From contig PQAL01000010.1 in the NCBI GenBank assembly GCA_003105035.1, forward strand, positions 62,001-126,000: a stretch of DNA of 64,000 nucleotides. The letters run 5' to 3'. The notes beneath the pieces were generated by a model. It made no database searches. It saw nothing but the letters and a program-made list of their open reading frames with translations, and was not told where the DNA came from. The position numbers and the translations under genes are program-made. Shown here piece by piece: positions 38,966-63,358 of the stretch (position 1 is its first letter; each line of letters starts with the position of its first letter). This stretch comes from Anaerolineales bacterium (GTDB lineage: Bacteria; Chloroflexota; Anaerolineae; Anaerolineales; UBA4823).

Positions 38966-40891
38966 CTAACTGGATTGTGCCTCACTCGTTTTTGTGATCT
39001 TCAACCTGGAGGGCGATCTCACTTCAGGGCAAAGCCAGGCTTCCCCTGGGTGCTCTCGACGCAGGTCAGCATAGGTCGGCAGGATCCCGCAGGCGAAACA
39101 GCTGGTGCGGCAATCTGGGCGCGTGCTGGGCTGTTTGCTAAGCTCATAATCCTGCAACAGGTAATTCTTACGGACGCCCGTGTTGATATGGTCCCATGGA
39201 AAAACCTCATCCTCTGAGCGAGGGCGATGCGTATAGAAAGTTGGGTCAAGCCCAGCCGTGGAGAAGGCCTGGTCCCAGGCAGAAAAATTGAACTGATCTT
39301 GCCAGGCATCGAACTTCGCCCCGTTCTTCCAGGCATGTAGCACCACTTCGGCCATGCGGCGGTCGCCACGTGCGAGCCAGGCTTCCAGAAATGTTACCTC
39401 GGGGTCTGTCCAGGTTAGTTTTATGTCGCGGTGGCGAAGCTCCTGCTTCAAGAGTGCCTGCTTGGAACGAATCTGGTCGATGGTATCGCAAGCCACCCAT
39501 TGGAAAGGCGTGTGTGGTTTGGGGATGAAGGTTGAAATACCCAGGTTCAATTTAGCTCGATGCCCGATGGCCTTGTGACCTTGCGCAAGCACCTGCTTGC
39601 ACAGGTCAGCGATTGCGTTGACATCCTCAAGGGTTTCTTCGGGATGGCCGATCATAAAGTACAGCTTGAGAGTCGTCCAACCACGTGAGTAGATCTGGTA
39701 GGCTGTTTCGAAAAGTTGAGCTGTGCTTACCGGTTTATTGATCAGGTTGCGCATATGCTCGGTGGCAGCCTCTGGGGCGAGGGTGAAACCCCCGTGGCGC
39801 GATTCCTGAAGCAAATCCATCAGGTCCACGGAGAACGATTCGATGCGCAGGGAAGGCAGAGAGATACCCAGGTGCTTCCCCTGGAAGCGCGTCTTGATCG
39901 TCTGAATCAGCTCAGCGATATGCGTATAGTCAGAGGAGGATAACGAGAGCAAGCCGATTTCTTCAAACCCCGTCGATTTCAGCGCCTGTTCAGCGGCCTG
40001 GACGATATCGCTGACGCTTCGCTCGCGCACCGGGCGGTTCACCATGCCTGCATGGCAGAAACGGCAGCCCCGCGTGCATCCCCGCGTGATCTCGATGGGA
40101 ACCCGGTTGTGGACGGTTTCGATATTCGGAAGGATGAAGTGAGTGGGGGGAGGCGGCAGTACTGGGACGATCCGCTTCAATACCGGCAGGCTTGCCTGGT
40201 CAACCAGTTTTGTGACTTCATGGACCGTTCCATCTGGATGGTAGGAGGCCTGGTAAAGGCTGGGCACATACACGCCTGGGATACTTGCTAAATTTACCAA
40301 CAATTGCTGGCGGGGAAGGGAGCTACGCTTCCAGGCCTGGTGGGCCGCGATGATTTCGTGGATCACCTGCTCACCTTCTCCGATCACGAATGCATCCACG
40401 AAATTGTGGACGGGTTCCGGGTTGAATGTCGCCTGGCCACCGGCGATGACCAGAGGGTCAGTTTCCCGCCGTTCATCCGTCGTCAAAGGTATTTGGGCCA
40501 GGTCGAGAGCGTTAAGCAGGTTTGTATACAGGGTTTCATACGGTAGGGTGAATCCAAGGATGTCAAACACCCGTAAGGGATGGTGTGATTCCAGAGAATA
40601 TAACGGGATGCCAGCCTGGCGCATGAGCCCTTCCATATCAATCCATGGGTTGTAGGCTCGCTCTGCCAGTGCGTCAGGCCGGTTATTGATCGCCTCATAA
40701 AGTATTGCCAGGCCCAGGTTGGACATCCCAATATCATAAATATCAGGGAATACCAGGGCTATGTGGGTTGCCACACTGTCCCATGGCTTGACCACCTGAT
40801 TAAGCTCGCCACCGACATACCGCCCAGGTTTTTGCACCTGGGGGAGCAGGCGTTCCAGTTTTTGATCGACCTCGTTGGGGAAAAATACCAT
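38966..40891 (-). CDS. TIGR03960-family B12-binding-domain radical SAM protein
   Basis: A 641-residue protein. The N-terminal half resembles a cobalamin-binding-like domain (P-D-I-Y-D-I-G-M-S-N-L-G near residue 50). The radical SAM core has C-T-R-G-C-R-F-C at Cys272, Cys276 and Cys279 (C-x3-C-x2-C). A C-terminal Cys group follows (C-R-T-S-C-F-A-C-G-I-L). ATG 40891 has GAGG 5 nt upstream; an earlier in-frame start at 40912 is less supported. Its partner, TIGR03936, follows at once. Together they form a widely conserved but poorly understood radical SAM system, probably acting on RNA or a small metabolite. Confidence 0.9.
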   Translation of the reverse strand: MVFFPNEVDQKLERLLPQVQKPGRYVGGELNQVVKPWDSVATHIALVFPDIYDIGMSNLGLAILYEAINNRPDALAERAYNPWIDMEGLMRQAGIPLYSLESHHPLRVFDILGFTLPYETLYTNLLNALDLAQIPLTTDERRETDPLVIAGGQATFNPEPVHNFVDAFVIGEGEQVIHEIIAAHQAWKRSSLPRQQLLVNLASIPGVYVPSLYQASYHPDGTVHEVTKLVDQASLPVLKRIVPVLPPPPTHFILPNIETVHNRVPIEITRGCTRGCRFCHAGMVNRPVRERSVSDIVQAAEQALKSTGFEEIGLLSLSSSDYTHIAELIQTIKTRFQGKHLGISLPSLRIESFSVDLMDLLQESRHGGFTLAPEAATEHMRNLINKPVSTAQLFETAYQIYSRGWTTLKLYFMIGHPEETLEDVNAIADLCKQVLAQGHKAIGHRAKLNLGISTFIPKPHTPFQWVACDTIDQIRSKQALLKQELRHRDIKLTWTDPEVTFLEAWLARGDRRMAEVVLHAWKNGAKFDAWQDQFNFSAWDQAFSTAGLDPTFYTHRPRSEDEVFPWDHINTGVRKNYLLQDYELSKQPSTRPDCRTSCFACGILPTYADLRREHPGEAWLCPEVRSPSRLKITKTSEAQSS

Positions 40892-40960
40892 TAAGACCTC
40901 AAGGGAGTGCAATAACCAATCAAATTATCCTTAGAATGTCAGATTATATCTTAAATTGAT

Positions 40961-41046: not shown

Positions 41047-41499
41047 TCAAGCCTCGAAGATCCACTGGTCAAGGGCACGTTCCCAGGTGACCAACTCCTG
41101 GGGAGAGAACCACAGCGCCACCTCTTTTTCACCGTTCTCCACGGTGTCTGAGGCATGGGTGAGGTTGCGGCCGATCTCCAGGGCAAAATCATGGCGGATC
41201 GAGCCGGGGGCTGCATTGGTTGGGGAGGTAGCTCCCATGGACTGGCGAATGGCATTGATGGCATTCGGTCCTTCCCAGACCATGGCCATCACCGGTGCAG
41301 AGGTGATATAGGCGATCAGGCTCTCGTAAAATGGCTTGCCCAGGTGGATGGCATAGTGAGTGCGGGCCAATTCCTGGCTGACATTGATAAATTTAGCAGC
41401 GACTAATCGCAATCCGCGCCGCTCCAACCTCAATATAACTTCACCGATTAAGCCTCTTTGGACTGCGTCGGGTTTTACCAGCACCAATGATCGTTCCAT
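41047..41499 (-). CDS. ndk: Nucleoside diphosphate kinase
   Basis: A 150-residue enzyme that balances NTP and dNTP pools by passing phosphate through an active-site His. It has L-V-K-P-D-A-V at the start, I-H-L-G-K-P-F-Y near 51, M-V-W-E-G-P-N-A, R-Q-S-M-G-A-T-S-P, and the catalytic H115 in N-L-T-H-A-S-D (usual form N-x-x-H-G-S-D; Gly to Ala here). The ATG has GGAGG upstream. Both flanks carry strong inverted repeats, so it is probably a single-gene transcript. Confidence 0.96.
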   Translation of the reverse strand: MERSLVLVKPDAVQRGLIGEVILRLERRGLRLVAAKFINVSQELARTHYAIHLGKPFYESLIAYITSAPVMAMVWEGPNAINAIRQSMGATSPTNAAPGSIRHDFALEIGRNLTHASDTVENGEKEVALWFSPQELVTWERALDQWIFEA

Positions 41500-41583: not shown

Positions 41584-44500
41584 CTACCTGACCAATTCTT
41601 CTGCCTTGATGTAGGCGTTCAAGGCTTCTTGTAAATCACTCTTCTTGGAATGCGCATCACCCAGGGTAACCCACATGTCGGTATCGACTGGGAAGCGGTA
41701 GAGCGCTTCCTGCAGGTCCTTGATGATCTCATCCAGGTGATAATTCTGTTTAATCAAATCCGCATAATAATTAGCAGCCTGCGATGGCTGACCCTGGCTG
41801 AGTGCATGGCGGGCTTCTGCCAGGCTACTCTCGGCTGCAAGCTTAGCAGGCGGCACTTCTTCCTGTGTAATGACAGCTTCAGTCACTGGTAGTGTGACTG
41901 GGAATTCAGGTACCAGTGGAGCGGATTCTTCATCGGGCGGGACAGCTGATTCGACCGCAGGTTGAGCAACTTCTTCAACCGCGGCAACGGCGAGTATCTC
42001 TGGCAGCGGAGGTTCTGGGACTATTTCCTCAGGAGCTTGGGCTGGAGTAGTTTCCTGCTCCCCTGCCAGGCTGGCAACTACCGCTGCAGCAGCCAGCTTT
42101 TCTGCAGCAGAGCTTTCAACTTCTGGGGTAGCCTGCTGTGGTTCTTCTGCTTCGGTTATTTCCTTGAGCCAGTCAGGCAGCTCTTCCGGTTCCCACTCCA
42201 AAGCTTCTTCTGCACTGCCTGCGGTTTCTTTTTCGGACTCCGGCTGTTCAAGCTCAACCAACCAGGCTGGCAGCTCTCCTTCAGCCAGTTGTTCAGCTTC
42301 AGGTTGTATGATCTCTTGAGTTTCCTCAGCGGGTTGTTCCGCTTCTGGCTCCTCTCCCAGGCCTTTTATCCAGTCGGGTACCTCTTCTGCCGCCTCTGCT
42401 GGCGGGGTGGGATGAGCTAACACGTCTGTGACCGGTTCGAGCTCGAGCTTCACCCAATCGGGCGGTTGGACTTCTCCTTCAAGCCCGGGCATGACTAATT
42501 CATCCGTACTGTTGGCATCTTGTTCATCCGTCAGACCTTTAAGCCATGCAAATGCTTCCGGCTCTGTAGCGGACTCAGGCTCAGCTGGGATCAATTCTGC
42601 TTCAAGCGGTATAACCTCTTCCGTGGGAGGCACTTCTTGTGGAGCTATAATATTCGCATCAGGCTCAGGCAGTGGGGCGGCAGAAATTGCTTCACCAAGT
42701 TCAGTTGTGGCTACCAGGGGTGGCACTTGCTCAGGCTCCTCAGTAGCTGGTAGCTCCTCTGTAGAGGGTAGCTGTGGCTCTTCTTCATGTGCTTTTGAAA
42801 GCATCTCAGCCGCAATGACTGCTCCGGCTAACGCGGGTGCGTGTGTCCCGGGCGACTCCTCAGCGGGGATCGCTTCCTCTTCAACTTGGGACAGCTCTGC
42901 TGCAAGAGGTACTTCGATGGCAGGTAGGGCTTCTGGTGAGATTGTCTCCTCTACCGGTGTACCAGCCTCGGAAAGTTCCTCTGCTGGTGCTTCTGGGGTG
43001 AGTACTTTAAGCCAGTCGGGTAGCTCGTCCTCCGTCGCTGGCACTGCGGGAGCTTCAAGCTCGGCTGCTCCTGGTATCGCTGGGATTTCGGCTTGTTCGA
43101 TTGGGGTTACAACTTCAACTACTGGCTCTTCGACTGCCTCGGGTTCAGTCACAGGGGTTTTAGGAGTCTCACTACCTTCCATGAAAGCAGAGATCCCGGC
43201 TGTAAAAGCTGCAGCAGCTGCCAGAGATGACTTGTCTTCGCTGGATGCTGCAGGCTGTGGGATGTCGATATCTTTCAGCCAATCGGGGACTTCATCATCG
43301 GGGTTAAACGCCGGGCTGTCTTGCTGAGGGGCTATGGATGCGTTGGGTTTCTTCTCTTCGTCCAACCAATGGATGATTGAATCAGTCGGGCCTGGCTGAT
43401 GAGGTTCCAACCAGGGGTTGGAAATTTTATCTTCGTCAGCCTGGGCAGTCGGGGAGGCATTCGTAACGAATCCATCTGGTGCAATCCCACGCAACCATTC
43501 GGGGATCTCAGCCTGGATCGCTTCTTTACCTTCCGGGTTTTCCGCGCTTACTTCTTCGATATTGGCCGATTCTGGTGGCACCTGCGTACTTTCACCCGTC
43601 GCAGGTTTCCAACCAGCATCCTTCATCCAATCCGGAATCTCACCTTCTGGTTTGGATGTGTCGGTGATGATCTTCTCCACTTCCTGGGTATCCCAGATAA
43701 ACGGGGAGACACTGGGAGATGCGTTCGCGACTGGAGGGGCAGCCGAAGGCGCTTCAGCAGCCTTCAGCCATTCTGGGATATTTTCATCCGTTTGTTGGTC
43801 AAGAGAAATACCCAATGAGGTTGCCCAGGATGGCTGTTCAGGGGCTTCTCCAACCTGGATTCCAGATTTCCACTCCAGTCGTTCAATGTTTACCGCACTA
43901 TCCGGCACCTGGTCGGAGGTGATGGCTTCCTGCTCAGCAAAGGCAAAATAAGGGTCCATTGAGACGGAGATCTGGCGCGCATTTTTAACTGCGTCTGAAC
44001 CCTCGGCTTCGGGAAGTGAAACTGCCAGGATGCGGTTTGCATCCATACATAGCGGCATTTTTTTTAGGATATTTACGCAGGTGTCCACAGCTTCAACGCG
44101 CTGGGAAGTCTGGAAAAACATCTGAGCCAGCAGAAGCTGCAGGTCAGGCCGATTCGGATCTTCGGTGATCGCCGCACGCAGCTCTGCAATTGACTGGTCG
44201 AACAAACCTCCCTTGGCATACATCCTGGCCAGGGCACCGCGGGTCAGGCGCACCTTGGGGGGTTGCATACCATCCCGCCGGCCGTACAGGCGCCGCAGCT
44301 CATCCTGGATGGCAATGTTGGCCGGCTGGGCTTCATAAGCCAGCTCCATGTGCCAGATGGCAGCATCCAGGTTGTTCTCGTCTTCCCGGATGATACTCAT
44401 CCCAACATTAGAGATAAAATCATCGGGGATGGCCGACAACACGCGTTGGAAAATGTCGGTGGCATCACTGATGCGCTGTTGTTCCAGATGAGCTTTTCCT

Positions 44501-44637
44501 AAAAGACGATAGGTGGCGATGTGTTTCGGAAATGTGGAAAGAATATGGCGGCAATGAGCGACAGATTCATCCAGCTGTCCATTATCGATCATGCCTTCGA
44601 TTTCATGGTTATAAGCACGTAATGAAATTATGGCCAT
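41584..44637 (-). CDS. Large TPR protein with repeated P-[DEA]-W-[LIMV] motifs
   Basis: A 1017-residue protein with no signal peptide. Residues about 1-240 and 935-1017 are tetratricopeptide repeats (for example A-H-L-E-Q-Q-R-I-S-D-A and A-L-N-A-Y-I-K-A-E-E). Between them is a long, disordered-looking stretch rich in Glu, Pro and Ala. It holds nine motifs of the form P-D/E/A-W-L/M/I/V followed mostly by Lys or Arg, spread over residues about 287-825 (such as I-P-E-W-L-K, V-P-D-W-I-K and L-P-D-W-L-K). The regular short motifs look like docking sites for a partner, with the TPR ends as further binding platforms. Proteins of this kind occur in Anaerolineae; the function is unknown. AGGAG precedes the ATG. 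Confidence 0.75.
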   Translation of the reverse strand: MAIISLRAYNHEIEGMIDNGQLDESVAHCRHILSTFPKHIATYRLLGKAHLEQQRISDATDIFQRVLSAIPDDFISNVGMSIIREDENNLDAAIWHMELAYEAQPANIAIQDELRRLYGRRDGMQPPKVRLTRGALARMYAKGGLFDQSIAELRAAITEDPNRPDLQLLLAQMFFQTSQRVEAVDTCVNILKKMPLCMDANRILAVSLPEAEGSDAVKNARQISVSMDPYFAFAEQEAITSDQVPDSAVNIERLEWKSGIQVGEAPEQPSWATSLGISLDQQTDENIPEWLKAAEAPSAAPPVANASPSVSPFIWDTQEVEKIITDTSKPEGEIPDWMKDAGWKPATGESTQVPPESANIEEVSAENPEGKEAIQAEIPEWLRGIAPDGFVTNASPTAQADEDKISNPWLEPHQPGPTDSIIHWLDEEKKPNASIAPQQDSPAFNPDDEVPDWLKDIDIPQPAASSEDKSSLAAAAAFTAGISAFMEGSETPKTPVTEPEAVEEPVVEVVTPIEQAEIPAIPGAAELEAPAVPATEDELPDWLKVLTPEAPAEELSEAGTPVEETISPEALPAIEVPLAAELSQVEEEAIPAEESPGTHAPALAGAVIAAEMLSKAHEEEPQLPSTEELPATEEPEQVPPLVATTELGEAISAAPLPEPDANIIAPQEVPPTEEVIPLEAELIPAEPESATEPEAFAWLKGLTDEQDANSTDELVMPGLEGEVQPPDWVKLELEPVTDVLAHPTPPAEAAEEVPDWIKGLGEEPEAEQPAEETQEIIQPEAEQLAEGELPAWLVELEQPESEKETAGSAEEALEWEPEELPDWLKEITEAEEPQQATPEVESSAAEKLAAAAVVASLAGEQETTPAQAPEEIVPEPPLPEILAVAAVEEVAQPAVESAVPPDEESAPLVPEFPVTLPVTEAVITQEEVPPAKLAAESSLAEARHALSQGQPSQAANYYADLIKQNYHLDEIIKDLQEALYRFPVDTDMWVTLGDAHSKKSDLQEALNAYIKAEELVR

Positions 44638-44796: not shown

Positions 44797-47175
44797 TTAG
44801 AACGGTGTAGCAGGTTTTTTACTGCTCAGGATCGCCCACCCAACCGCAACCAATAGCGCGAGCCCGACCACATAAGACACTGCAGGGGAGGTGCTATATT
44901 TTACGATGATGGGAGCCATGATCAGGCTGACCAGATTGACGACCTTGATCATGGGGTTAAGTGCCGGCCCGGCGGTGTCTTTCAGCGGATCACCAACGGT
45001 ATCACCGACAACACCCGCCTTATGTCGCTCGGAGCCCTTGCCGGTGTTCGCCTGAAGGTCCCTGGGTTCGTCTTCAATCGATTTCTTAGCATTATCCCAG
45101 GCGCCGCCGGTATTAGCCATAAACACCGCCAAGAGCTGGCCACTCAGGATGATGCCAGCCAGGAAGCCGCCCAATGCCTCTACCTGTAATAACAATCCGA
45201 CCGCCAGGGGTAATAGGACGGCGATGGTTGCCAGCGGGATCAGCTCTTTTTGTGCAGCCTTGGTAGAGATACCTACTGCCCGAGCATAATCGGGCTGGAC
45301 CTTGCCCTCCATCAACCCAGGGATGCGGAACTGGCGACGAACTTCCTCCACGATCAAGCCTGCAGCACGCGTGACGGCTTTGATGGATAGCGAGCTGAAT
45401 AACCAGGGAAGGGCACCACCCAGCAGCAAACCGACAAATACACGTGTGTCAGAGACACGGATGGAATCCATCACCGGAAAACCGAGCTGTGATTGAACCC
45501 GGCCGACATCGGTTATGAAAGAAGCAAATAGACTGACCGCGGCAATGACTGCCGATGCAATTGCCACACCTTTGGTGATGGCTTTCGTGGTGTTACCCAC
45601 CGCATCCAGATCCGCCATGATCTGGCGGGCTTTACGTGTTTCTTCATCATCCATGTCATGCCAGGCCATCTCGCCGATGCCGTTGGCGTTATCGGAGATG
45701 GGCCCGTACGAGTCCATGGCGACATTGTTCCCGGTGTGGCTGAGCATACCGATACCGATCATGGCAACTGCATACAAAACGTAGGTGGTTCCGTTAGAAC
45801 TGTAGAGCAGCACAGCCAGGATAAAGCTTATGACAATCACCACCAAGGCCCATACGCTTGATTCCATCCCCACGGATAATCCGGACAAGATGGTGGTCGC
45901 CGGACCGCCACGCGTTGAATCGACGATTTCCTTGACAGGAGCCTTCTTGGTGGAGGTGAAATAGGAGGTCAGCGGATTGTAGGCAACCGCAAGAGCGACG
46001 CCAATGGTGGTTAAGGCAGCCAAGCGCCAATCATCGGCATACCAGTAAGCCAGGGCGAACGACCATACTATGGTATTGATGCTCGACACTTCATATGAAC
46101 GGAACATGGCTTCTTCAGCATCATGAGCTCGCAGGAACTTGATGGGGAAGCCTTCCCAGATTGGGACGGTGAAAGTACCTAAAATGGAGCTGAGCACACC
46201 GATAGCTCGGATAATTAAGGGATATACGATCCACTTTAAGTCACCGGTCAGAGCAACCAGGGCTAACCCCAGGATCAGGCCAGAAACGATGGTCACCTCA
46301 TAGCTTTCGAAGATGTCAGCAGCCATTCCTGCGCAGTCACCTACGTTATCACCAACCAGGTCAGCTATCACAGCGGCATTTCGGGGATCATCTTCGGGGA
46401 TATCCTGTTCGACCTTACCCACCAGGTCCGCACCGACATCTGCAGCCTTGGTATAGATACCGCCTCCTACGCGCATGAATAGGGCTAGCAAGGTGCCACC
46501 AAAACCAAAGCCTAATAATGCATCCGGGGCGGCACGCCCGAAAATCATGAAGATCAGGGTGCCACCCAGAAGGCCCAAGCCATCGGTCAACATCCCGGTG
46601 ATTGTGCCAGCGTAATAAGCGATGGAGAGCGCTTCATTAAAACCGCGGCGGGCTGCAGAAGCTGCCCGGACGTTAGCCTCGATCGCCATGCGCATGCCCA
46701 GCTGACCGACAGTTAGTGAAAATGAGGCACCCATGATGAAGCCAATCATGCGGGCCACCCCGATGATGAGCAGGATCTGCTGGTAAGCAGCGGGGTTGCT
46801 TTCTTTTGTGATTCCCTCGGCACAGGTAGTCAATGCCTGGATATTATGAGCATCTACGCCCTGGAGGAAGATACAATGCCATTCACGGGCTTCCAAGGAA
46901 GGAGGAACGATATATACCGAAAGGAAGAGGACGACGGTTAGAACGATTATCAGGGGAAGAATGGAGCGCAATTGGCGGTTCAAATAGCTGTTCGCACCAA
47001 TGCGAATGGCGTTCCACACTTCCTGCATCTTTGGGGTGCCTTTATCCTTTGCCAGGACTCTGCCTCGCAGATACCAGGCATACAATAAGCTGATGATGGC
47101 AACAACCACCACACCCACGATAGCGATCTGCTCAAAGCTATTCAATCCATGTCGAGCTAAACCCAAGATATCCAT
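44797..47175 (-). CDS. hppA: Membrane-bound proton-translocating pyrophosphatase
   Basis: A 792-residue protein with about 16 membrane helices that couples pyrophosphate hydrolysis to H+ (or Na+) pumping. Pyrophosphate-binding motifs are D-V-G-A-D-L-V-G-K-V-E with D-I-P-E-D-D-P-R-N, D-N-V-G-D-C-A-G-M-A-A-D, N-D/N-A-N-G-I-G-E-M and S-E-R-H-K-A-G-V-V-G-D-T-V-G-D-P. The segment G-N-T-T-K-A carries Lys where K+-dependent enzymes have Ala, so this is probably a K+-independent, proton-type pump. GGAGGAGAG precedes the ATG. It saves energy in anaerobes by recovering pyrophosphate. Its leader carries a terminator-like hairpin. Confidence 0.95.
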   Translation of the reverse strand: MDILGLARHGLNSFEQIAIVGVVVVAIISLLYAWYLRGRVLAKDKGTPKMQEVWNAIRIGANSYLNRQLRSILPLIIVLTVVLFLSVYIVPPSLEAREWHCIFLQGVDAHNIQALTTCAEGITKESNPAAYQQILLIIGVARMIGFIMGASFSLTVGQLGMRMAIEANVRAASAARRGFNEALSIAYYAGTITGMLTDGLGLLGGTLIFMIFGRAAPDALLGFGFGGTLLALFMRVGGGIYTKAADVGADLVGKVEQDIPEDDPRNAAVIADLVGDNVGDCAGMAADIFESYEVTIVSGLILGLALVALTGDLKWIVYPLIIRAIGVLSSILGTFTVPIWEGFPIKFLRAHDAEEAMFRSYEVSSINTIVWSFALAYWYADDWRLAALTTIGVALAVAYNPLTSYFTSTKKAPVKEIVDSTRGGPATTILSGLSVGMESSVWALVVIVISFILAVLLYSSNGTTYVLYAVAMIGIGMLSHTGNNVAMDSYGPISDNANGIGEMAWHDMDDEETRKARQIMADLDAVGNTTKAITKGVAIASAVIAAVSLFASFITDVGRVQSQLGFPVMDSIRVSDTRVFVGLLLGGALPWLFSSLSIKAVTRAAGLIVEEVRRQFRIPGLMEGKVQPDYARAVGISTKAAQKELIPLATIAVLLPLAVGLLLQVEALGGFLAGIILSGQLLAVFMANTGGAWDNAKKSIEDEPRDLQANTGKGSERHKAGVVGDTVGDPLKDTAGPALNPMIKVVNLVSLIMAPIIVKYSTSPAVSYVVGLALLVAVGWAILSSKKPATPF

Positions 47176-47544: not shown

Positions 47545-48495
47545 ATGATCGAAGTTGAAGGATTGACCAAGGATTACGGTGCCAGGCGGGCGATCAATAA
47601 CCTCACCTTCCAGGCGAACTCAGGCGAGATCTTGGGTTTCCTGGGTCCGAACGGGGCTGGCAAGACCACCACCATGCGCATCCTGACTGGTTTCATGCCA
47701 CCCACGATGGGCACAGCCAGGGTAGCAGGTTTCGACGTGGTAGATAAATCCCTGGAGGTAAGAAAAAGAGTAGGTTATTTACCCGAAACCGTCCCCTTGT
47801 ACCCAGATATGACTGTTTTCGATTATTTGAAGTACATGGCAGACTTGCGTCATATCAAGAATGCTGACGAGCGGGTAGAGGATGTGCTTGAGATCGTCCA
47901 TATGGAAGAGCGGAGTAATGGGTATATCAGCAACTTATCCAAAGGTATGCGCCAACGAATTGGCCTGGCACAAGCACTATTGCATGAACCTGAAGTCCTC
48001 ATTCTAGATGAACCGACGATTGGCCTGGACCCTGCCCAGATCAAAGAGGTGCGTACATTGATTAAGGATATTGGAAAACAACGCACTGTCCTGTTATCAA
48101 CCCATATCCTGTCAGAAGCACAACAAATCTGCGACCGGGTCTTAATCATCAATAAAGGGGTGATCGTAGTCGAAGACACCCCGGAGCGGCTGCAAGCGGG
48201 GCTTAGTGGGGTGCAACGAGTTTCACTGCAAGTACAGGGTGACGGCGATGGATTGGAGAAGCTGATCAATGGGATTAGCGGGGTTGGGAAGGTGACCGGG
48301 CGAGGAGAAGGTGCGGTTGAAGTTGAGACTGCCCCAGGGAAAGACCTGCGCCCGATTATTGCCAAGAATGTAATCAAGGCGGGTTATGACTTGCTAGAGC
48401 TGAGGAATGTCGACCTGAGCCTGGAAGATATCTTCCTGGAATTAACCCGCGACGAACCTGCACCTCCGACTACCGACGATTCGGAAGAAGCTTAG
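47545..48495 (+). CDS. Gld-type ABC transporter, ATP-binding protein (GldA-like)
   Basis: A 316-residue ABC ATPase of the CcmA/GldA group: Walker A G-P-N-G-A-G-K-T-T-T, signature L-S-K-G-M-R-Q-R-I-G-L-A, Walker B L-I-L-D-E-P-T and H-loop L-S-T-H-I-L-S-E-A. An extra C-terminal domain of about 90 residues follows the ATPase core. It begins a four-gene set (ATPase, ABC-2 permease, GldG-like protein, DUF4340) that is conserved in many phyla and named after gliding-motility genes of Bacteroidetes, though most carriers do not glide. TAGGAG precedes the ATG. Confidence 0.88.
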   Translation: MIEVEGLTKDYGARRAINNLTFQANSGEILGFLGPNGAGKTTTMRILTGFMPPTMGTARVAGFDVVDKSLEVRKRVGYLPETVPLYPDMTVFDYLKYMADLRHIKNADERVEDVLEIVHMEERSNGYISNLSKGMRQRIGLAQALLHEPEVLILDEPTIGLDPAQIKEVRTLIKDIGKQRTVLLSTHILSEAQQICDRVLIINKGVIVVEDTPERLQAGLSGVQRVSLQVQGDGDGLEKLINGISGVGKVTGRGEGAVEVETAPGKDLRPIIAKNVIKAGYDLLELRNVDLSLEDIFLELTRDEPAPPTTDDSEEA

Positions 48496-48553
48496 AGAAC
48501 CAATTAATTCGGCTTTTTGATCAGTCAAGACAACCGTAACAAGGAAGGATTTC

Positions 48554-49294
48554 ATGCGAAACGTATGGATTATCGCTCGGAGAGAGTATAAATACTACTT
48601 CACCAGCCCGGTCGCTTATATCATTGTATTCTTCTTTATGCTCCTCTTGGGGATATTTTTCTATCTTAATCTCTCGTCAGCCATTCTGCAGGCAGCATAT
48701 ACATCATCAGCACCCGGGGTTCAAATCGTCATCAGCCCGATGGTCACACTATTGTTATTTGTCATGCCAGCAGTCAGCATGCGCACTATCTCTGATGAGA
48801 TACGCATGGGTACCATGGAGCTTTTATTGACCTCCCCGATTAAAGATTGGGAACTGGTGGTAGGTAAGTGGTTGGGGGCATTCTTGTTCATGCTCACGCT
48901 TTTAGCCGTGACATGGGTTTTCCCCATCGTACTAAATTTCCTGGTGAACCCAGGGATCGACCAGGGGGTGCTGCTGTCGGGATATCTTGGCTTGCTGCTG
49001 ATGGTGGCGAGCATGATCGGGATTGGGGTGTTCATCTCAACTCTATTCAATAACCAGATTGTGGTCTACTTTATCAGCCTGGTCGTCATGCTGGTCTTAT
49101 GGTTTGGATCCCAGCTGGCCAGCTCAAGTGGTGGGCTTGGCAGCCAGTTACTGTCGTATCTCTCCTATGTCGATCACTTTTATAGCTTCTACCAGGGAAC
49201 AATCGACCTGAGTGATACCGTCTACTACCTGAGCCTGACTGCACTGGCATTATTCTTTGGAACGGTATCGATTGAAATGCGGAGGTGGCGCTAA
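48554..49294 (+). CDS. ABC-2 type permease (GldF-like)
   Basis: A 246-residue membrane protein with about six helices: a short N-terminal arm (W-I-I-A-R-R-E-Y-K-Y-Y-F-T-S-P), then helices from about 20 to 240. The conserved R-T-I-S-D-E-I-R-M-G-T-M-E-L-L-L-T-S-P segment is the ATPase-coupling region of ABC-2 permeases. Substrate unknown. Its stop overlaps the ATG of the next gene by one base (TAATG), so the two are translationally coupled. Confidence 0.87.
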   Translation: MRNVWIIARREYKYYFTSPVAYIIVFFFMLLLGIFFYLNLSSAILQAAYTSSAPGVQIVISPMVTLLLFVMPAVSMRTISDEIRMGTMELLLTSPIKDWELVVGKWLGAFLFMLTLLAVTWVFPIVLNFLVNPGIDQGVLLSGYLGLLLMVASMIGIGVFISTLFNNQIVVYFISLVVMLVLWFGSQLASSSGGLGSQLLSYLSYVDHFYSFYQGTIDLSDTVYYLSLTALALFFGTVSIEMRRWR

Positions 49295-50865
49295 TGAAAA
49301 CGAACTGGCGTCAGATTATTCGGTATGGTGCGCTAATCATCGCGCTGCTTGCCCTGCTGGCTTCAGCAGGTTTATGGATCGTCCAGCACCAATGGAACCT
49401 GGCTTTGCAGATCTGTCTGGCTCTTTTTGTGATCGGGCTGGCAGTATTTGTGGTCATGGATCCGGGGGCAGTGCGGAAGGCACTGACCGGCCGGCAGGCC
49501 AAATACGGTAGTAATGCCCTAATTTTAGCTGCAGCTTTTCTGGGAATCCTGGTGGTGGTCAATTATTTGGCATATAAAAATACCAAGCGAATTGACTTGA
49601 CCGAAGATAAATCGAATACCCTGGCAAAAGAAACGGTAGAGGTGCTGAAAAGCCTGCCGGAAAATGTTGTGGCAAAGGCATTCTTTACCACCAATACGAC
49701 TGTTGCTACATCTAAAGATAGTGCGAAACTATTGTTGGAACAATATGTTTATGAGGGAGCCGGGAAATTCAAATACGAGTTTATCGATCCAAACAATGAT
49801 CCCGCAGCAGCCCAGGATGCAGGTATCACAGCAGATGGCACAGTCGTGCTTTATATGGGTAATGCCAAGCAGAGCGTGACCTCCATCTCGGAGGAAAATC
49901 TTACTGGAGCAATGGTCAGGCTAATGAATCCTGAAGCACACGTAATTTACTTCCTGACCGGTCACGGCGAGTATCCAATCACAGGCAGCGCTGACCAATC
50001 CTACACTGAGTTATCTGCTGCATTGGAAGCAAAGAATTATTCAGTGCAAAGCTTGAATCTGTTGGCGAAGTTGGACGTACCACAAGATGCCAGTGTGATC
50101 GTGGTCGATGGACCCAAGAAGCCACTCAGCGATGCTGAGGTGAGTATGCTGGATAGCTACATCAAAGATGGTGGCTCGGTGGTGGTGATGGAAGACCCTG
50201 CCCTTGACACGCAATTTGGTGACTCGCCCGACCCGTTAGCCAGCGACCTGTCCGCGAATTATGGCATCATCCTGGGGAATGATACCGTGGTGGACATGTA
50301 TGGGTACCAGGCATTTCAGAACCCATATTTTGCTGTTGGCTACCAATATGCTACCCACGCCATCACGTCCAAAATGGGTACCATGGGAACTGGTTTCCAG
50401 GGCGCCAGGACGGTCTCTGCGGATGATTCAACTGGGACGGATTACACCAAGTCGCAGTTGATCACCACGGTCGAGCAATCCTGGGGTGAGACCGATGCAA
50501 GCTCGATCCAAGCGAGCAATCCAGAATTCAATGAGGGCATTGATATAGCTGGACCTGTACCTCTGGCAGTAGTTGCCTCCGGATCCAACGATGCACGCCT
50601 GGTTGTCTTTGGAGATTCTGACTTTGCCACGAACGCATACTACGGATTTTATGGCAACGGTGAAATGATCGTGAACTCGGTCGATTGGGCTGCCAAGCAG
50701 GAGAATCTCATCAATCTGACCGCTAAGAATACCGTCGAGCGCACCCTGGTACAGCCGAAAACCTACACAATGGGTTTGATCCTGCTTGGTTCATTGATTG
50801 TCTTACCCGGGATTGTACTCGTGGCAGGCATCGGATCTTGGTTGGCTCGCAGGCGGCAAGGTTAA
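49294..50865 (+). CDS. GldG-like ABC auxiliary membrane protein
   Basis: A 523-residue protein with two N-terminal hydrophobic segments (about 10-30 and 35-55), a third near residue 75-95, a large extracytoplasmic domain, and a membrane helix close to the C-terminus (about 490-515) ending in A-R-R-R. The domain matches the ABC-auxiliary/GldG type: L-T-E-D-K-S-N-T-L-A-K-E-T-V, F-L-T-G-H-G-E-Y, a D-x-S-V-I-V-V-D-G-P block, and V-F-G-D-S-D-F. ATG 49294 is chosen because GGAGG (49281-49285) lies 8 nt upstream. Its role is to work with the GldA/F-like pair in moving an unidentified substrate. Confidence 0.82.
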   Translation: MKTNWRQIIRYGALIIALLALLASAGLWIVQHQWNLALQICLALFVIGLAVFVVMDPGAVRKALTGRQAKYGSNALILAAAFLGILVVVNYLAYKNTKRIDLTEDKSNTLAKETVEVLKSLPENVVAKAFFTTNTTVATSKDSAKLLLEQYVYEGAGKFKYEFIDPNNDPAAAQDAGITADGTVVLYMGNAKQSVTSISEENLTGAMVRLMNPEAHVIYFLTGHGEYPITGSADQSYTELSAALEAKNYSVQSLNLLAKLDVPQDASVIVVDGPKKPLSDAEVSMLDSYIKDGGSVVVMEDPALDTQFGDSPDPLASDLSANYGIILGNDTVVDMYGYQAFQNPYFAVGYQYATHAITSKMGTMGTGFQGARTVSADDSTGTDYTKSQLITTVEQSWGETDASSIQASNPEFNEGIDIAGPVPLAVVASGSNDARLVVFGDSDFATNAYYGFYGNGEMIVNSVDWAAKQENLINLTAKNTVERTLVQPKTYTMGLILLGSLIVLPGIVLVAGIGSWLARRRQG

Positions 50866-50871
50866 CCGGTT

Positions 50872-51492
50872 ATGGTACGTCGAACTACATGGATCCTGCT
50901 GGTTGTGTTTGGTGTGTTGGCTGTGTTTGCCTGGTGGTTTCAACGCGATCAAGCAAACAAGCAAGAAACCACGGCAACATCCACAGCATTTCCCACAGTT
51001 GCCAGGCTTCTCAACCTTGACAGTAACCAGGTGAATGAGATCACCATCGCCAGTAAAACCGGTGATGAGGTGAGCCTATACAAAACCACAGCTTCGGCAT
51101 CAAATTGGGGAGTAAAGGACATCCCAGCAGACCAGGTGGATACCAACCGGCTGGAGTCGGTTGTCACGCCTTTGCTCTCTCTGGAGGTATCAGAGATATT
51201 AAGCCAGTCGCCAGCTCTCGAGACAATTGGTTTGGATAAACCGGCATACACGATCACGATACTCACTACAGATGGGCAGAAAGCTGTGATCTATGTCGGC
51301 AATCTGAATGCCATCGGGACCGGCTATTATGCACGTGTGGGTAATGGCCCCATCTTGATCCTCGACAATGTCATTTTGGATGATGCGTTCAAGCTGATCA
51401 GCGAGCCACCCCTACTGGCGACTACGACCCCGCAGGTGACGGAGACGGGCACATCAATTGCACCAGAGACGCTAAGTACTCCGACACCATAG
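50872..51492 (+). CDS. DUF4340 domain protein
   Basis: A 206-residue protein anchored by one N-terminal helix (about 5-22), with an extracytoplasmic beta-rich domain. Blocks are V-N-E-I-T-I-A-S-K-T-G-D-E-V, W-G-V-K-D-I-P-A-D and I-Y-V-G-N-L-N-A-I-G-T-G-Y-Y-A-R. These mark DUF4340, the usual last member of GldA/F/G-like operons. The length is shorter than many relatives. It begins 6 nt after the GldG-like gene; function unknown. Confidence 0.8.
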   Translation: MVRRTTWILLVVFGVLAVFAWWFQRDQANKQETTATSTAFPTVARLLNLDSNQVNEITIASKTGDEVSLYKTTASASNWGVKDIPADQVDTNRLESVVTPLLSLEVSEILSQSPALETIGLDKPAYTITILTTDGQKAVIYVGNLNAIGTGYYARVGNGPILILDNVILDDAFKLISEPPLLATTTPQVTETGTSIAPETLSTPTP

Positions 51493-51605: not shown

Positions 51606-52829
51606 ATGATAGATGAAGAATTAATCAATGCAATCGCGAATCGCGAAGACGAGCATCCTGCATTAGCCAGGCTAATCGAGCTGGGCAGGCAGAAATCTTT
51701 TGTAACGATCGATGATATCCTAAGCTTTTTCCCTGAAGCTGAGCAGGATGTGGACCAGCTGGAAGAGGCCTTTGCAGCTTTGATCAGCGCGGGCATCCCA
51801 TATGTCGACGATGTCACCGTCGGAGCGCCGACGGAAGATGAGCTGACTGCAGTGGAAGAAGAAGAGACAGAGGAAGAAACTCACCGTGTGGTAGTGGTGG
51901 ATGACAACTACCTGGCCAATATCGACACGGATGACACCATCGGGCTGTACCTGAAAGAAGTTGGCCGTGTCCCGTTGCTCACGGCTGAAGAGGAAGTACA
52001 GCTAGCCAAGCGCATTGAGCAAGGCAGACTGGCACGTGAAGAGTTAGCCAAGGGCAATATCAGCCTACGCAGGCGTGGTGAGCTTCAAATGCATATCGAA
52101 GACGGCTGGTTGGCTCGTGAGCATTTGATCACTGCCAACTCACGCCTGGTAATCAGTGTGGCCAAGAAATACATGGGCCGTGGAGTGCCATTCCTGGATC
52201 TAATCCAGGAAGGCAATATCGGCCTGATCCGGGCAGCCAAGAAATTTGATTACCGGCGCGGTCATAAATTCAGCACCTATGCCACCTGGTGGATCCGCCA
52301 GGCTGTGACGCGTGCCATCGCGGACCAAGGCAGGACGATCCGTGTGCCTGTGCATATGGGTGACCAGATCAACAAGCTGCTCAGGGTGCAGCACCAGCTT
52401 ACCCAACGCCTGGGGCGTGATCCCAGTGTGGATGAGCTGGCTCAAGCCCTGGAAGTCACCCCTCAAAAAGTCGAGAACATGATCCAGGTTGCCAGGCGCC
52501 CACTCTCGCTCGAGACGCCGACTGATGACGAAGAAGATTCAGTGTTGGGTGACTTCATTCAAGATGAAGAAGTACCCGCACCTGATGAGACCGCTACGTA
52601 CAATTTATTGCGTGAACACCTGGATGTGGTCTTGAATGGTTTACCGCCGCGTGAAGTACGAATCTTACAGCTACGTTACGGCTTATTGGATGGACAGGCT
52701 TATACCCTGGAAGAAGTGGGGCGGAAGATGGGTGTGACGCGTGAGCGCGTCAGGCAGATCGAAGCGCAAGCTTTAAGCCGTTTACGACATCCCTCCATAC
52801 GCCGCAGGTTACGTGAATACCTCGGATAA
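51606..52829 (+). CDS. rpoD: RNA polymerase primary sigma factor (RpoD/SigA)
   Basis: A 407-residue housekeeping sigma factor. Region 1.1 (about 5-65) is present, followed by a short acidic linker, region 1.2 ([12 protein letters not shown], near 115), region 2 with the full Y-A-T-W-W-I-R-Q-A motif (near 230), region 3 (near 260-310) and region 4 with R-Y-G-L-L-D-G and the helix-turn-helix [12 protein letters not shown] (near 380-395). Region 1.1 identifies a primary rather than an alternative sigma factor, although Chloroflexota may have several similar copies. AGGGAGAG precedes the ATG, and a strong terminator follows. Confidence 0.95.
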
Positions 52830-56881: not shown

Positions 56882-58129
56882 TTGAATAAGTCTCGCACCC
56901 CTGTGTCCATCCTGATCGTTCTATTATGCGTTGTCCTCTTGCTTGGGGTCGTGTGGGCTAACTACCGCTTTGCGCAGTATCGGTTATTCGGAGAGGGGTT
57001 TTCCATTCAATGGTTGGGCATTCATGCCCTCGTGTCTGAAGGTGCAAACCCATATAGCGAGTTGATCACAACCAGGATCCAGGATGCCGTAAAATCTGTG
57101 TATGGCTTTTCCCCCGGAGTGGCACCCAAATACACTTCTCCGCTATATTCGGCTATCATTACATTTCCATTTGCCTTGATCAACTCCCAGGCGACTGCAC
57201 ATTCGGTATGGTTCGCCATCCAGCTGGTGGTGGTTTTCGCGATTCTGCTCTTGTGCATAAAACTAACCGCATGGAAACCAGCCTGGTATATCCTGTTGCT
57301 TTTTACCATTTTTACAATTTTTAGCTACCATGTGGTCATGCCCTGGTTGGATGGGAGCCTATCTATCTGGTCGGCACTCTTTCTCGTATCAGCCTTGTTG
57401 GCGATCTCGCAAAATCGGGATGAAGTGGCGGGGATCTTGCTGGGGTTATCTGCTTTCCAGCCGCAAATGGTCATCCTACCGATCATTTTCACCTTGATAT
57501 GGGCTGGGGCTCACAAAAGAAGACTGCTAATCTTGTGGTTTTTTATCCTTCTGATCTTGTTGTCCATCATTGGTATGTTTTTAGTCCCCGACTGGATCAT
57601 CCAATACCTACGCTTGTTGTTCAATTACTCAGAAAACTTTCCTCCCGGTACGCCAGGATTCTTATTCCAGGATCTATGGCCAGGTATCGGAAGACAGTTG
57701 GGCTGGGTAATCAGTGGTGTATTATTAGTCATCCTGGCTTTTGAATGGTGGTTGGCGCGGCGCAGGGAATTCCGCTGGTTCACCTGGACGATTTGCTTGA
57801 CGATCGTGATCAGCCAATGGATTGGTATTCCGACAATCCCGGCAAATTTCATTGTGCTGCTCATACCCCTGGTCTTTGTGACAGCTATGCTCGCCGAGCG
57901 GTGGCCGCGGGGTGGCAATTGGGTTGCGACCATCAGCTGCATGCTACTCTTCGTTTGGGAGTGGGGTTTATTTTACCTGGATATCACCGGCAGCCAGCCA
58001 GCTATGCAACTAAACCTGCTCATCCCGCTGCCCCTGCTCCTATTGATCGGTTTGTATTGGGTGCGCTGGTGGGCGATCAAACCCCGAAAGCTATTGGTGG
58101 AGGAGTTGAAGTTCAGTGAGTCGTATTAA
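56882..58129 (+). CDS. GT87-like polyprenyl-linked sugar transferase (membrane)
   Basis: A 415-residue membrane protein with about ten to eleven helices, starting at TTG 56882 behind AGGTGAG. The helix layout and the Q-P-Q-M-V segment near residue 200 (compare K-P-Q in its paralogues at 59616-63337) place it in the GT87/DUF2029-like group of GT-C glycosyltransferases. These use lipid-linked sugars at the outer face of the membrane. Acceptor and sugar unknown. Its end overlaps the start of the next membrane gene by 14 nt. Confidence 0.7.
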   Translation: MNKSRTPVSILIVLLCVVLLLGVVWANYRFAQYRLFGEGFSIQWLGIHALVSEGANPYSELITTRIQDAVKSVYGFSPGVAPKYTSPLYSAIITFPFALINSQATAHSVWFAIQLVVVFAILLLCIKLTAWKPAWYILLLFTIFTIFSYHVVMPWLDGSLSIWSALFLVSALLAISQNRDEVAGILLGLSAFQPQMVILPIIFTLIWAGAHKRRLLILWFFILLILLSIIGMFLVPDWIIQYLRLLFNYSENFPPGTPGFLFQDLWPGIGRQLGWVISGVLLVILAFEWWLARRREFRWFTWTICLTIVISQWIGIPTIPANFIVLLIPLVFVTAMLAERWPRGGNWVATISCMLLFVWEWGLFYLDITGSQPAMQLNLLIPLPLLLLIGLYWVRWWAIKPRKLLVEELKFSESY

Positions 58130-59630
58130 ACCGCGCTTCACCATCGAGCACCTGTGGGGGGTTGTAGTCTTAATTGGGATATTCATGTTCGTCAATACCC
58201 ATCCCATCCGCCCGTACGATTTCTGGTGGCACATTGCAGTTGGCAAGGAAATCGTGGAAACTGCCAGCATCCCAACTACAGACGTTTATTCGTTTACCGC
58301 GGCAGGCCAGCCATATCCCTCGTACCAGATGTTCTGGTTGATGGAAATTATTCTTTATTCGATTTACAAGGCAGGTGGACCAGCACTCGTGGTATTCTTC
58401 CAGAGCCTGTTGATCACCGGTGCATATGGCGTGTTGTTCTATATTTGTAAGCAGGCTTCTAACAGCTGGCGTATCTCGGCCCTAAGCGTACTATTTGCCG
58501 CAGCACTGGGCCTGAATGATTGGAATGTGCGACCACAGGGAATCACTTTCCTGCTGGCCAGCCTGATCCTGCTGGCGATCTATGAATACCGCAGGAGACC
58601 ACATTTGGGCTGGCTATTGCTTCCGCCGGTGTGCCTGTTGATATGGGCCAACAGCCATGGGACGTTTATCATCGGGTTAACCTTGCTCGGGATCTGGTGG
58701 GGTGACGAGATCTGGAGGGTTGTCTGGAGCCTGATCAGGCATGAAGCCATTACCGATTGGAAAAAAGTCATCCTGCCAGGAGCCACGCTATTGATCTCAG
58801 CCCTGGCATGCCTGCTTAACCCACAAGGGTTCGGAATCATTGATTACCTGCGCACCCTGACAGGAAACAGCGTTGTGCAGAATCTTGTCACCGAGTGGGC
58901 TCCGCCAACAATCTACTCATTAATGGGCGGCTTGTTCTTTGCTGGGTTGGTCTTCAGTATACTGGTCATGCTGCTTTCACGGAAAAAAGCAGATTTCTTC
59001 CAGGTGGTTACTTTCCTGGTTTTTGGGATTTTAGGGATACGCACCGCGCGCGGCAGCGTGTGGTTTGGTCTGGTGATGGCACCCATCGTGGCAGAGCACA
59101 TAGCAGCGATCGTTCAACGGTACCGTAAAACCACCCAAAAGCAGGGAAAATCTCAAGGGTCAGGCTACCTGAATGTCTTCTTGCTCGTTTTCGTACTCTT
59201 ATTGGGTTTCATCTCCTTGCCATGGTTTAAAAATCAGCTGCCCTTCCCGGCAGCCAAGGCGGGGTTGATCTCAAGTGAAACACCCATCTGGGCCACCCAG
59301 GCATTGTTTGAGGAAAATCCACCTGGGAAGCTGTTTAACTCAATGACTTTCGGGAGTTACCTGATCTGGGCAGCGTATCCACAATATCAGGTGTTCGTCG
59401 ATTCGCGCATCGAGCTCTTTCCAAAAGCTGTCTGGTTGGAGTATCTGCGTATCAGCAATGCTGAAGATGATTGGGAAAGTTTATTGGATAAATACGGGAT
59501 CAACACGCTCATGCTCAGCCCAGCCGAGCAACCGGGACTGGTAAAAGCCGTGGAATCTTCCGACAGCTGGAAGCTGCTCTACAAGGATGAGGTAGCGCGT
59601 ATTTACATTCGGACCTCAGGCACGCAGTAA
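58116..59630 (+). CDS. GT-C-type membrane protein, putative glycosyltransferase
   Basis: A 504-residue membrane protein with about ten helices. The first loop has the acidic D-F-W-W-H-I-A-V-G-K motif near residue 35, typical of the catalytic Asp of GT-C enzymes. The soluble C-terminus contains G-S-Y-L-I-W-A near 415 and D-S-R-I-E-L-F-P. It shares this C-terminus with the partial gene at the window end (63359-64000), so the two are paralogues. The gene is coupled to the preceding GT87-like gene and ends 15 nt inside the convergent next gene. Confidence 0.7.
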   Translation: MSRIKPRFTIEHLWGVVVLIGIFMFVNTHPIRPYDFWWHIAVGKEIVETASIPTTDVYSFTAAGQPYPSYQMFWLMEIILYSIYKAGGPALVVFFQSLLITGAYGVLFYICKQASNSWRISALSVLFAAALGLNDWNVRPQGITFLLASLILLAIYEYRRRPHLGWLLLPPVCLLIWANSHGTFIIGLTLLGIWWGDEIWRVVWSLIRHEAITDWKKVILPGATLLISALACLLNPQGFGIIDYLRTLTGNSVVQNLVTEWAPPTIYSLMGGLFFAGLVFSILVMLLSRKKADFFQVVTFLVFGILGIRTARGSVWFGLVMAPIVAEHIAAIVQRYRKTTQKQGKSQGSGYLNVFLLVFVLLLGFISLPWFKNQLPFPAAKAGLISSETPIWATQALFEENPPGKLFNSMTFGSYLIWAAYPQYQVFVDSRIELFPKAVWLEYLRISNAEDDWESLLDKYGINTLMLSPAEQPGLVKAVESSDSWKLLYKDEVARIYIRTSGTQ

Positions 59631-60848
59631 CACTACCGATTGACGCGCCCAAACAATAAAGACGAAAACGGGGATCAAGCCGGTCAAGGCGACCTTCAGG
59701 GGGATACCGAGGGCGGGTAGAAACAGCATGGCAATGTATACCCCAATCGTGATGTATAACAAGCGTCGGTCCTGGGAGGGATTGTAAGCTAGCAGGATCA
59801 ATACCGGGATGAGCAATAATAAATCATGCAATAATGCATAGGGGGTTATTATAAGGGGGAACAGCATCGCCATGGACAGTACCAGGTTCTGGTTAGTAAG
59901 TGGTTGTTTCCTGGTTGTAAATATCAACCAAACAAAGAAGGCAAGCAGTATAGCAACCAGGCCATAATAAACCTGGTTCCATAACGTAGAATATTTAAAT
60001 GGTATCAGTGAGGCAACCAGGGAGTAAGGGGTTGCAAGAACAGCGGTAGGAAATCCCTCCTTCACATAAGGCAGGTAGACCATGTTTTTAAGGAAATCTA
60101 GGTATGCAAGGTATGGTCCTACCCCCTTGGTGATCAACACAAAACCATTCCAGATGATCGAAAACAGAATGAAGACCAGGATCGGGTAGAACTTTTTCCA
60201 TACAAGCCATACCAGCAGGAAGCCAACCACGAACTGGGGCTTGTAGGTCAACCCGGCAGCCAGCAACCCGGCGATGAACCACTTCTCCTTGAGGGTTGCC
60301 ACGAGAATACCCACCATTATCAATAAGGTGATCGCGTGCATCTGCCCAGCAGCAAAACCTTCGATGAAGGCAAAGCTTGAAAATATAAGGATAGCCAACT
60401 GTGGAGTGGTAAGTCCGTTTTGTGAGAACCGTTTCGGCACCAGGTAGCGTTGCATTAATTGGGCAGCCAGGATGATGCAATAGATGCTAAGGAGGCACCA
60501 CAGGATTAGACTGATTGGGAGCGAAAGGTAGGACAGTACTGAATGTAAAAGGGCTGCATGGGGAGGGTAGCTATATAAAGTGACACCGGGGGGCACGGTT
60601 GGGGCAATCAGGCTGAGCTGGGTTGATTCTTGAACAACTGGGTTATAGAGTTGTGCGATATCGGTTTTATACAGCAGCCCGCCGGCGTAATAAACCACAA
60701 AGTCGCCCCACATCAATAAATTTAGCACGCCACCAACCCAGCCGCGGTGCAGTAGCAGGTTGAGCAACAATACAATGCTGCAGGCAATCAAGATCAGCCG
60801 TGGGTAGTCGCGCAGGCGTTTAGGGTTCAGCCAGTTCTTGAGAGCCAT
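59616..60848 (-). CDS. GT87-like polyprenyl-linked sugar transferase (membrane)
   Basis: A 410-residue membrane protein with about eleven helices. It has the family segments A-A-G-Q-M-H-A-I-T-L-L near residue 160 and Y-K-P-Q-F-V-V near 195, plus an extracytoplasmic loop with Y-S-Y-P-P-H-A. It closely resembles the gene at 62066-63310 (both begin with K/N-x-K-R-x-R-D-Y-P-R-L), so they are recent duplicates. It starts 29 nt inside the end of the upstream gene, so expression is coupled. Confidence 0.8.
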   Translation of the reverse strand: MALKNWLNPKRLRDYPRLILIACSIVLLLNLLLHRGWVGGVLNLLMWGDFVVYYAGGLLYKTDIAQLYNPVVQESTQLSLIAPTVPPGVTLYSYPPHAALLHSVLSYLSLPISLILWCLLSIYCIILAAQLMQRYLVPKRFSQNGLTTPQLAILIFSSFAFIEGFAAGQMHAITLLIMVGILVATLKEKWFIAGLLAAGLTYKPQFVVGFLLVWLVWKKFYPILVFILFSIIWNGFVLITKGVGPYLAYLDFLKNMVYLPYVKEGFPTAVLATPYSLVASLIPFKYSTLWNQVYYGLVAILLAFFVWLIFTTRKQPLTNQNLVLSMAMLFPLIITPYALLHDLLLLIPVLILLAYNPSQDRRLLYITIGVYIAMLFLPALGIPLKVALTGLIPVFVFIVWARQSVVLLRA

Positions 60849-62061: not shown

Positions 62062-62065
62062 TTCC

Positions 62066-63310: not shown

Positions 63311-63358
63311 TATTTTCCAAATACTAATTCTGGACATCCTATTTGACGAAATATTGCG

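Follow-up and report, generated by a model that had tools for sequence, protein, structure and literature searches.

A double-ended TPR protein of Anaerolineae with an array of PDWL-type tryptophan motifs, a probable docking scaffold, and a membrane protein that carries the same array

The locus described here lies in a window of 64,000 nucleotides from an Anaerolineales genome, and its features are collected in Table 1. The central gene encodes a member of the TPR superfamily, referred to below as the scaffold, in which several Pfam TPR models exceed their cut-offs at both ends. TPR_19 (residues 17-73, E 5.6e-13) and TPR_14 (residues 135-173) match in the N-terminal domain (N-TPR), and TPR_16 (residues 939-1012, E 1.6e-12) matches in the C-terminal domain (C-TPR). 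The first-pass annotation had described TPR domains on both sides of a disordered, Glu/Pro-rich middle, and this description holds. The middle consists of 18% Glu, 15% Ala and 14% Pro. In an AlphaFold2 (AF2) model of residues 1-360, run with an alignment of 58 orthologues, N-TPR is an all-helical solenoid with pLDDT above 95 over most of its length, and residues 261-360 are of low confidence (pLDDT block means 39-73). The Trp motifs in this monomer model are very short helices of low pLDDT without confident docking on N-TPR. After N-TPR, the tail VPDSAVNIERLEW, with the conserved pattern VPDxAVxLERLEW, is placed beside the domain at high confidence, with one strand at residues 250-252 and another at 3-5; this is reminiscent of an intramolecular peptide on a TPR surface. 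Additionally, the plus-strand ORFs that overlap the gene (41962-43951) look like a side effect of its repetitive composition.

In the profile libraries used, only generic TPR matches were found for the scaffold, with no assigned function or family, and PHROGs gave no match. The scores against MamA (NF040959, 40.7 bits) and the XrtA/PEP-CTERM TPR protein PrsT (TIGR02917, 45 bits) are under the respective cut-offs of 200 bits (equivalog) and 312. Sequence and fold comparison with the PDB returned generic TPR superhelices only, such as designed TPRs, OGT, and Pex5.

Table 1. Features of the scaffold locus and its syntenic neighbours, in window coordinates
Feature	Position	Strand	Basis or remark
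H+-pyrophosphatase, syntenic neighbour	44797..47175	-	by eye; 16/21 loci
Double-ended TPR scaffold gene	41584..44637	-	1017 aa ORF; Pfam and orthologues
N-terminal TPR domain, residues 1-233, most conserved part	43939..44637	-	Pfam, AF2
Conserved tail VPDSAVNIERLEW, within residues 241-256	43870..43917	-	pLDDT 93-97; kept in A4
First, variant motif QPSWATSLG (W271)	43807..43833	-	W271 invariant in 58 orthologues
Motif 1 PEWL	43765..43776	-	motif pattern
Motif 2 PDWM, extended IPDWMKDAGW	43624..43635	-	motif pattern; same place in orthologues
Motif 3 PEWL	43492..43503	-	motif pattern
Motif 4 PDWL	43276..43287	-	motif pattern
Motif 5 PDWL	43009..43020	-	motif pattern
Second-type Trp module EAFAWLKGL...PPDWVK (W698)	42448..42558	-	orthologue form DDAFAWLESLAAKQGA..EALLLSPEERxExPPEWV
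Motif 6 PDWV	42451..42462	-	motif pattern
Motif 7 PDWI	42367..42378	-	motif pattern
Motif 8 PAWL	42259..42270	-	motif pattern
Motif 9 PDWL	42166..42177	-	motif pattern
C-terminal TPR domain, residues ~935-1017	41587..41835	-	Pfam; conserved among orthologues
Nucleoside diphosphate kinase (Ndk), syntenic neighbour	41047..41499	-	by eye; 14/21 loci compared
TIGR03960 radical SAM protein, syntenic neighbour	38966..40912	-	profile; 17/21 loci

Between N-TPR and C-TPR there are exactly nine P-[DEA]-W-[LIMV] motifs, which span about 540 residues and have their Trp at residues 290, 337, 381, 453, 542, 728, 756, 792, and 823. The count given by the first-pass annotation is therefore exact, and it is far above expectation. 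When the middle region was shuffled 1000 times, the strict pattern P[DE]W[LIMV], observed 8 times, occurred 0.11 times on average, and the loose pattern PxW[LIMVA], observed 10 times, had a mean of 0.86 and a maximum of 5. Two further Trp elements had been missed, the variant motif at W271 and the second-type module at W698. In most orthologues this module reads [DE]DAxAWLESLAAKQGA, followed by PPEWV. Many conserved copies of a short motif on a disordered tether are a feature of multivalent short-linear-motif scaffolds in general, and the protein shows it.

Orthologues of the scaffold were found in 29 of the 38 genomes of the family, including all 11 good ones, and in 104 of the 199 genomes of the class. 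A scan of named genomes gave 80 orthologues, from records named Anaerolineae, Chloroflexi or Chloroflexota, with hosts such as Anaerolinea thermolimosa, Longilinea arvoryzae, and Bellilinea caldifistulae. The complete named orthologues (n = 57) are 759-1597 aa long and contain 4-20 strict motifs (median 9) or 6-25 loose ones, and motif number increases with tether length (r = 0.68). The logo of the orthologue motifs is E-E-[LIV]-P-[DE]-W-L-[KRQS]-[ED]-[LIA], and the core [LIV]-P-[DE]-W-L-x-x-[LIA] is conserved while the copy number differs. Among 761 motifs, position +1 after the Trp is L, V, M, I or A in about 96%, and the Pro at -2 is fixed by the choice of window. In 11 pairs of relatives, identity is 75% for motif residues, 44% elsewhere in the tether, and 55-99% for N-TPR, whose mean column identity is 72% over 16 orthologues. 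Also, the motif IPDWMKxAGW is found at the same place in orthologues. Poor conservation of motif number and core among orthologues had been named beforehand as evidence against a scaffold role. The core is kept, and the number varies from 4 to 20, as expected for an array.

The order H+-pyrophosphatase, scaffold, Ndk, TIGR03960, TIGR03936, and PrsW-like protein is largely kept among relatives; TIGR03960, TIGR03936, and PrsW were called by profile, and H+-pyrophosphatase and Ndk by eye. In three genomes (G134, G086, and G152; L296, L304, and L309), the scaffold gene is split into N-TPR plus array, then array plus C-TPR, and the downstream half carries the second-type module as well as C-TPR. 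In family f44 (L384, L385), only an array plus C-TPR protein is kept. A plus-strand cluster at 47545-51492, consisting of an ABC ATPase, an ABC-2 permease, a PF09822 (GldG-like) protein, and a DUF4340 protein, adjoins an RpoD-type sigma factor (51606-52829) and stands beside the scaffold in many relatives. At least 3 glycosyltransferase family 87 genes form a close group within 56882-63337 (56882-58129 on the plus strand, 59616-60848 and 62066-63337 on the minus strand).

A search for other proteins with the motif, as the first-pass annotation had recommended, was productive. The pattern scan of the same genome found one other array protein, of 640 aa (C43:7557-9479), which has an N-terminal zinc ribbon, the array, and two predicted TM helices around an alpha/beta domain. 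Its five motifs are all Trp-Leu, four of them PxWL. The remaining PDWL-like matches in this genome are single, mostly inside other proteins or short ORFs, and form no array. Among eight genomes, matches to the motif profile fell almost only on the scaffold and this zinc-ribbon/TM protein, here called the membrane carrier. We infer its topology, and the side on which the array lies, from the positions of the predicted helices. The C-domain of the membrane carrier is present in 36 of 38 family genomes and in 130 of 199 class genomes, and in most members the array score is well above shuffled expectation; the member of G026 has one loose motif only. For the alpha/beta domain, no convincing match was found in the PDB (best E 3e-3, TM <0.45).

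The membrane carrier belongs to a conserved operon (L058 6168-13109) that encodes DUF6754, a TM protein, the carrier, a TM protein, a GlmL-like ATPase, and a 361 aa protein. No mention of DUF6754 was found in the literature search. The ATPase scores 214 bits (E 3.4e-63) against the Pfam model MutL (PF13941), whose cut-off is 27 bits. It was rejected as GlmL proper, with 94 bits under the 475-bit cut-off of the equivalog model NF040745, and is regarded as a relative instead.

Motifs also occur in a third protein, which was seen in at least one genome (G006) and is sporadic. This 1588 aa ORF (L259, G006:C157, 2262-7025, minus strand) contains two IPDWLK motifs and the second-type module, here DEAVAWLEGLAARRGA. 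Motifs and module precede a region that is kinase-like by eye and has no Pfam match. The ORF adjoins another, of 1562 aa, with a GIGTAG...N motif. Since the array is present in a membrane protein and motifs are present in a third protein, the scaffold is not the sole carrier.

A genome with an array in the scaffold tends to have one in the membrane carrier, and a genome without the one tends to be without the other. The two proteins were compared in 47 genomes, with at least 3 motifs counted as an array: both carry an array in 36 genomes, neither does in 8, and a single one does in 3. This threshold and the broad pattern were chosen after the data had been seen, so that significance should not be claimed from the Fisher value for these counts. 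The discordant genomes are G077 and G144, in which the membrane carrier has an array and the scaffold is nearly motif-free, and G051, in which the reverse is found. On the N-TPR tree, about 7 changes between array and no array are needed. Independent events are few, since 7 of the 8 genomes without arrays belong to one family, f35. Families f16 and f37 gave no N-TPR protein, and their membrane-carrier orthologues have no array, which may have been lost or never present. In f19 and f41 the scaffold is without motifs (G053, G112), and a membrane carrier was not found in the genomes of these families read or listed. The joint presence and absence of the two arrays points to one shared reader.

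A co-occurrence analysis for a reader domain, as proposed in the first-pass annotation, covered the GlmL-like gene. Every one of the 26 genomes in which one or both carriers have an array also has this gene; it occurs in neither of the 2 f41 genomes and in 1 of the 8 f16/f37 genomes, as one weak match. It also occurs in the arrayless families f35, f24, f19, and f32, and is therefore at best necessary and not sufficient. The GlmL-like ATPase of the membrane-carrier operon is our first-ranked candidate reader, as a tentative choice. Its superfamily, the actin superfamily, includes the actin-fold protein FtsA.

The second-ranked candidate, doubtful when taken singly, is C-TPR. Of the array-bearing loci that extend far enough downstream, nearly all contain it, and so do the array proteins of f44 (in G190 by profile, in G209 by eye). 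This distribution agrees with the idea that the scaffold reads itself, its own TPR domains binding the Trp motifs in trans to give a homotypic network with direct recruitment of the membrane carrier. A precedent is found in the TPR grooves of kinesin light chain, which bind W-acidic peptides whose acidic residues flank the Trp on both sides, for example EWD and LEWDD (PMC6214655). However, C-TPR also exists without arrays (G053, G112, and G058), and N-TPR persists in the arrayless genomes G053, G112, and G099. The segment that the AF2 model of residues 1-360 places confidently beside the TPR domain is the tail and not a motif. Moreover, f44 has arrays both in the membrane carrier and in the array plus C-TPR protein with an N-TPR match in 0 of 6 genomes. 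N-TPR is therefore not the only reader, and as sole reader it is ruled out. On balance, we consider self-reading unlikely.

Less probable still is mimicry of the FtsZ tail, by which the array would imitate the C-terminal peptide of FtsZ, bind SepF or FtsA, and tie the scaffold and membrane carrier to the division machinery. Most members of the family have two FtsZ paralogues per genome (here G000:C29:3877-4851 and G000:C14:40893-41852), and nearly all paralogue tails read are LD[ILV]P[TA]F[LM]R-like. Both tails of this genome, LDIPTFLRNR and LDIPAFLRRG, end in a hydrophobic-Pro-x-Phe-Leu-Arg core. When windows centred on an aromatic residue are ranked by the motif profile with the Trp position left out, these tails are among about the best 0.5%. 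Compared with the FtsZ core, the array motifs have Trp in place of Phe, and [KR] in part of the motifs only. FtsA binds the FtsZ C-terminal peptide directly (PMC5832921). But Pro drives much of the match, and the resemblance is weak evidence, since Pro was a criterion in choosing the profile windows, and equally high scores are reached by about 30 unrelated windows. The aromatic residue is Trp in every motif against Phe in every FtsZ tail read, the flanks are acidic in the motif and basic in FtsZ, and FtsZ is present in 37 of 38 family genomes. The least probable explanation, and one that we disfavour, is that the motifs are not docking sites and that the middle is a low-complexity spacer expanded by repeats, in which PDWL recurs by tandem duplication. 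Recent duplications can indeed be seen in some orthologues (LPDWLAGM repeats in L029 and L102, GELPAWLSEMG in G152), the number of copies differs between orthologues, and the tether is longer where motifs are more numerous. A spacer of this kind is difficult to reconcile with the higher identity of the motif core than of the surrounding tether, with the same core in a second, unrelated protein, and with first motifs that hold their position in 58 orthologues.

Taken together, the docking-scaffold reading fits well, because the array is conserved, variable in copy number, and disordered, with a core under constraint. In Anaerolineae, the protein probably serves as a multivalent docking scaffold in the cytoplasm, with a predicted reader that it shares with the membrane carrier. 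The docking idea of the first-pass annotation is thus upheld in its main part and amended in that the scaffold is one of several carriers. That a partner reads the motif is suggested by conservation and co-occurrence, and the binding, the single reader and its identity, the membrane recruitment, and any cell process served are proposed in the same spirit. In the proposed mechanism, the two TPR domains bracket a disordered tether with 4-20 copies of [LIV]-P-[DE]-W-[LIMV]-x-x-[LIA], each probably forming a short amphipathic helix once bound. The same array would be displayed from the membrane by the unrelated membrane carrier, in the order zinc ribbon, array, TM helix, alpha/beta domain, TM helix. 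The motifs of both carriers, as many low-affinity sites, are probably bound by a single cytoplasmic reader, which would thereby cross-link scaffold and membrane carrier in an assembly that forms at the membrane through avidity. The TPR domains may recruit other clients or dimerise.

A broader proposal, which at present seems improbable, is a class-specific bacterial docking code, in which PDWL arrays on the TPR scaffold, on the zinc-ribbon membrane protein, and occasionally on others would be read by one dedicated domain, perhaps that of the GlmL-like ATPase, to build a membrane-associated assembly. If this is true, bacteria would have a counterpart to the motif-reader networks of eukaryotes. 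Much of a bacterial class has kept the array, which is common to two unrelated proteins that tend to gain and lose it together. These observations also name a concrete peptide, with the consensus EEIPDWLKEL and the motif peptide EEIPDWLKELEE, and a short list of candidate readers.

Scaffolds with multivalent motifs are a familiar feature of eukaryotes and, to our knowledge, have been described in few bacteria only. The general kind is thus known. Neither the profile libraries nor the literature searched yielded the PDWL motif, its carriers, or the linkage between them. The literature search gave no description of a TPR protein with PDWL, and the matches listed for the letters pdwl concern other subjects. 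Of bacterial TPR scaffold proteins, MamA and others resemble the protein in having a TPR domain and give a weak NCBIfam match, but the MamA score is far under the family cut-off, and we know of no Trp-motif array in MamA. The loose likeness to the FtsZ peptide would lie in a hydrophobic-Pro-x-aromatic-Leu-[KR] core, which in FtsZ stands at the end of a disordered tether. FtsZ, a tubulin-fold GTPase, carries its peptide once, at the C-terminus, with Phe and a basic flank, whereas the array has 4-20 copies in TPR and membrane proteins without a tubulin fold, with an invariant Trp and an acidic flank. With kinesin light chain and its W-acidic ligands, the system shares a short Trp-acidic motif in a disordered region and the presence of TPR, and a low-affinity, multi-copy logic is possible in both. 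Here, however, the Trp is preceded by Pro and followed by a hydrophobic L, I, M or V, and the +1 position, where W-acidic peptides have an acidic residue, is of the composition given above for the 761 motifs. Also unlike kinesin light chain, motif and TPR are on one chain; homology extends to the TPR superfamily only. The GW-repeats of TNRC6 and the FG-repeats of nucleoporins are eukaryotic multivalent disordered scaffolds, and the array resembles them in that a disordered tether carries short aromatic motifs in many copies, with avidity as the logic, while it differs in its motif, in being bacterial, and in being bracketed by TPR domains.
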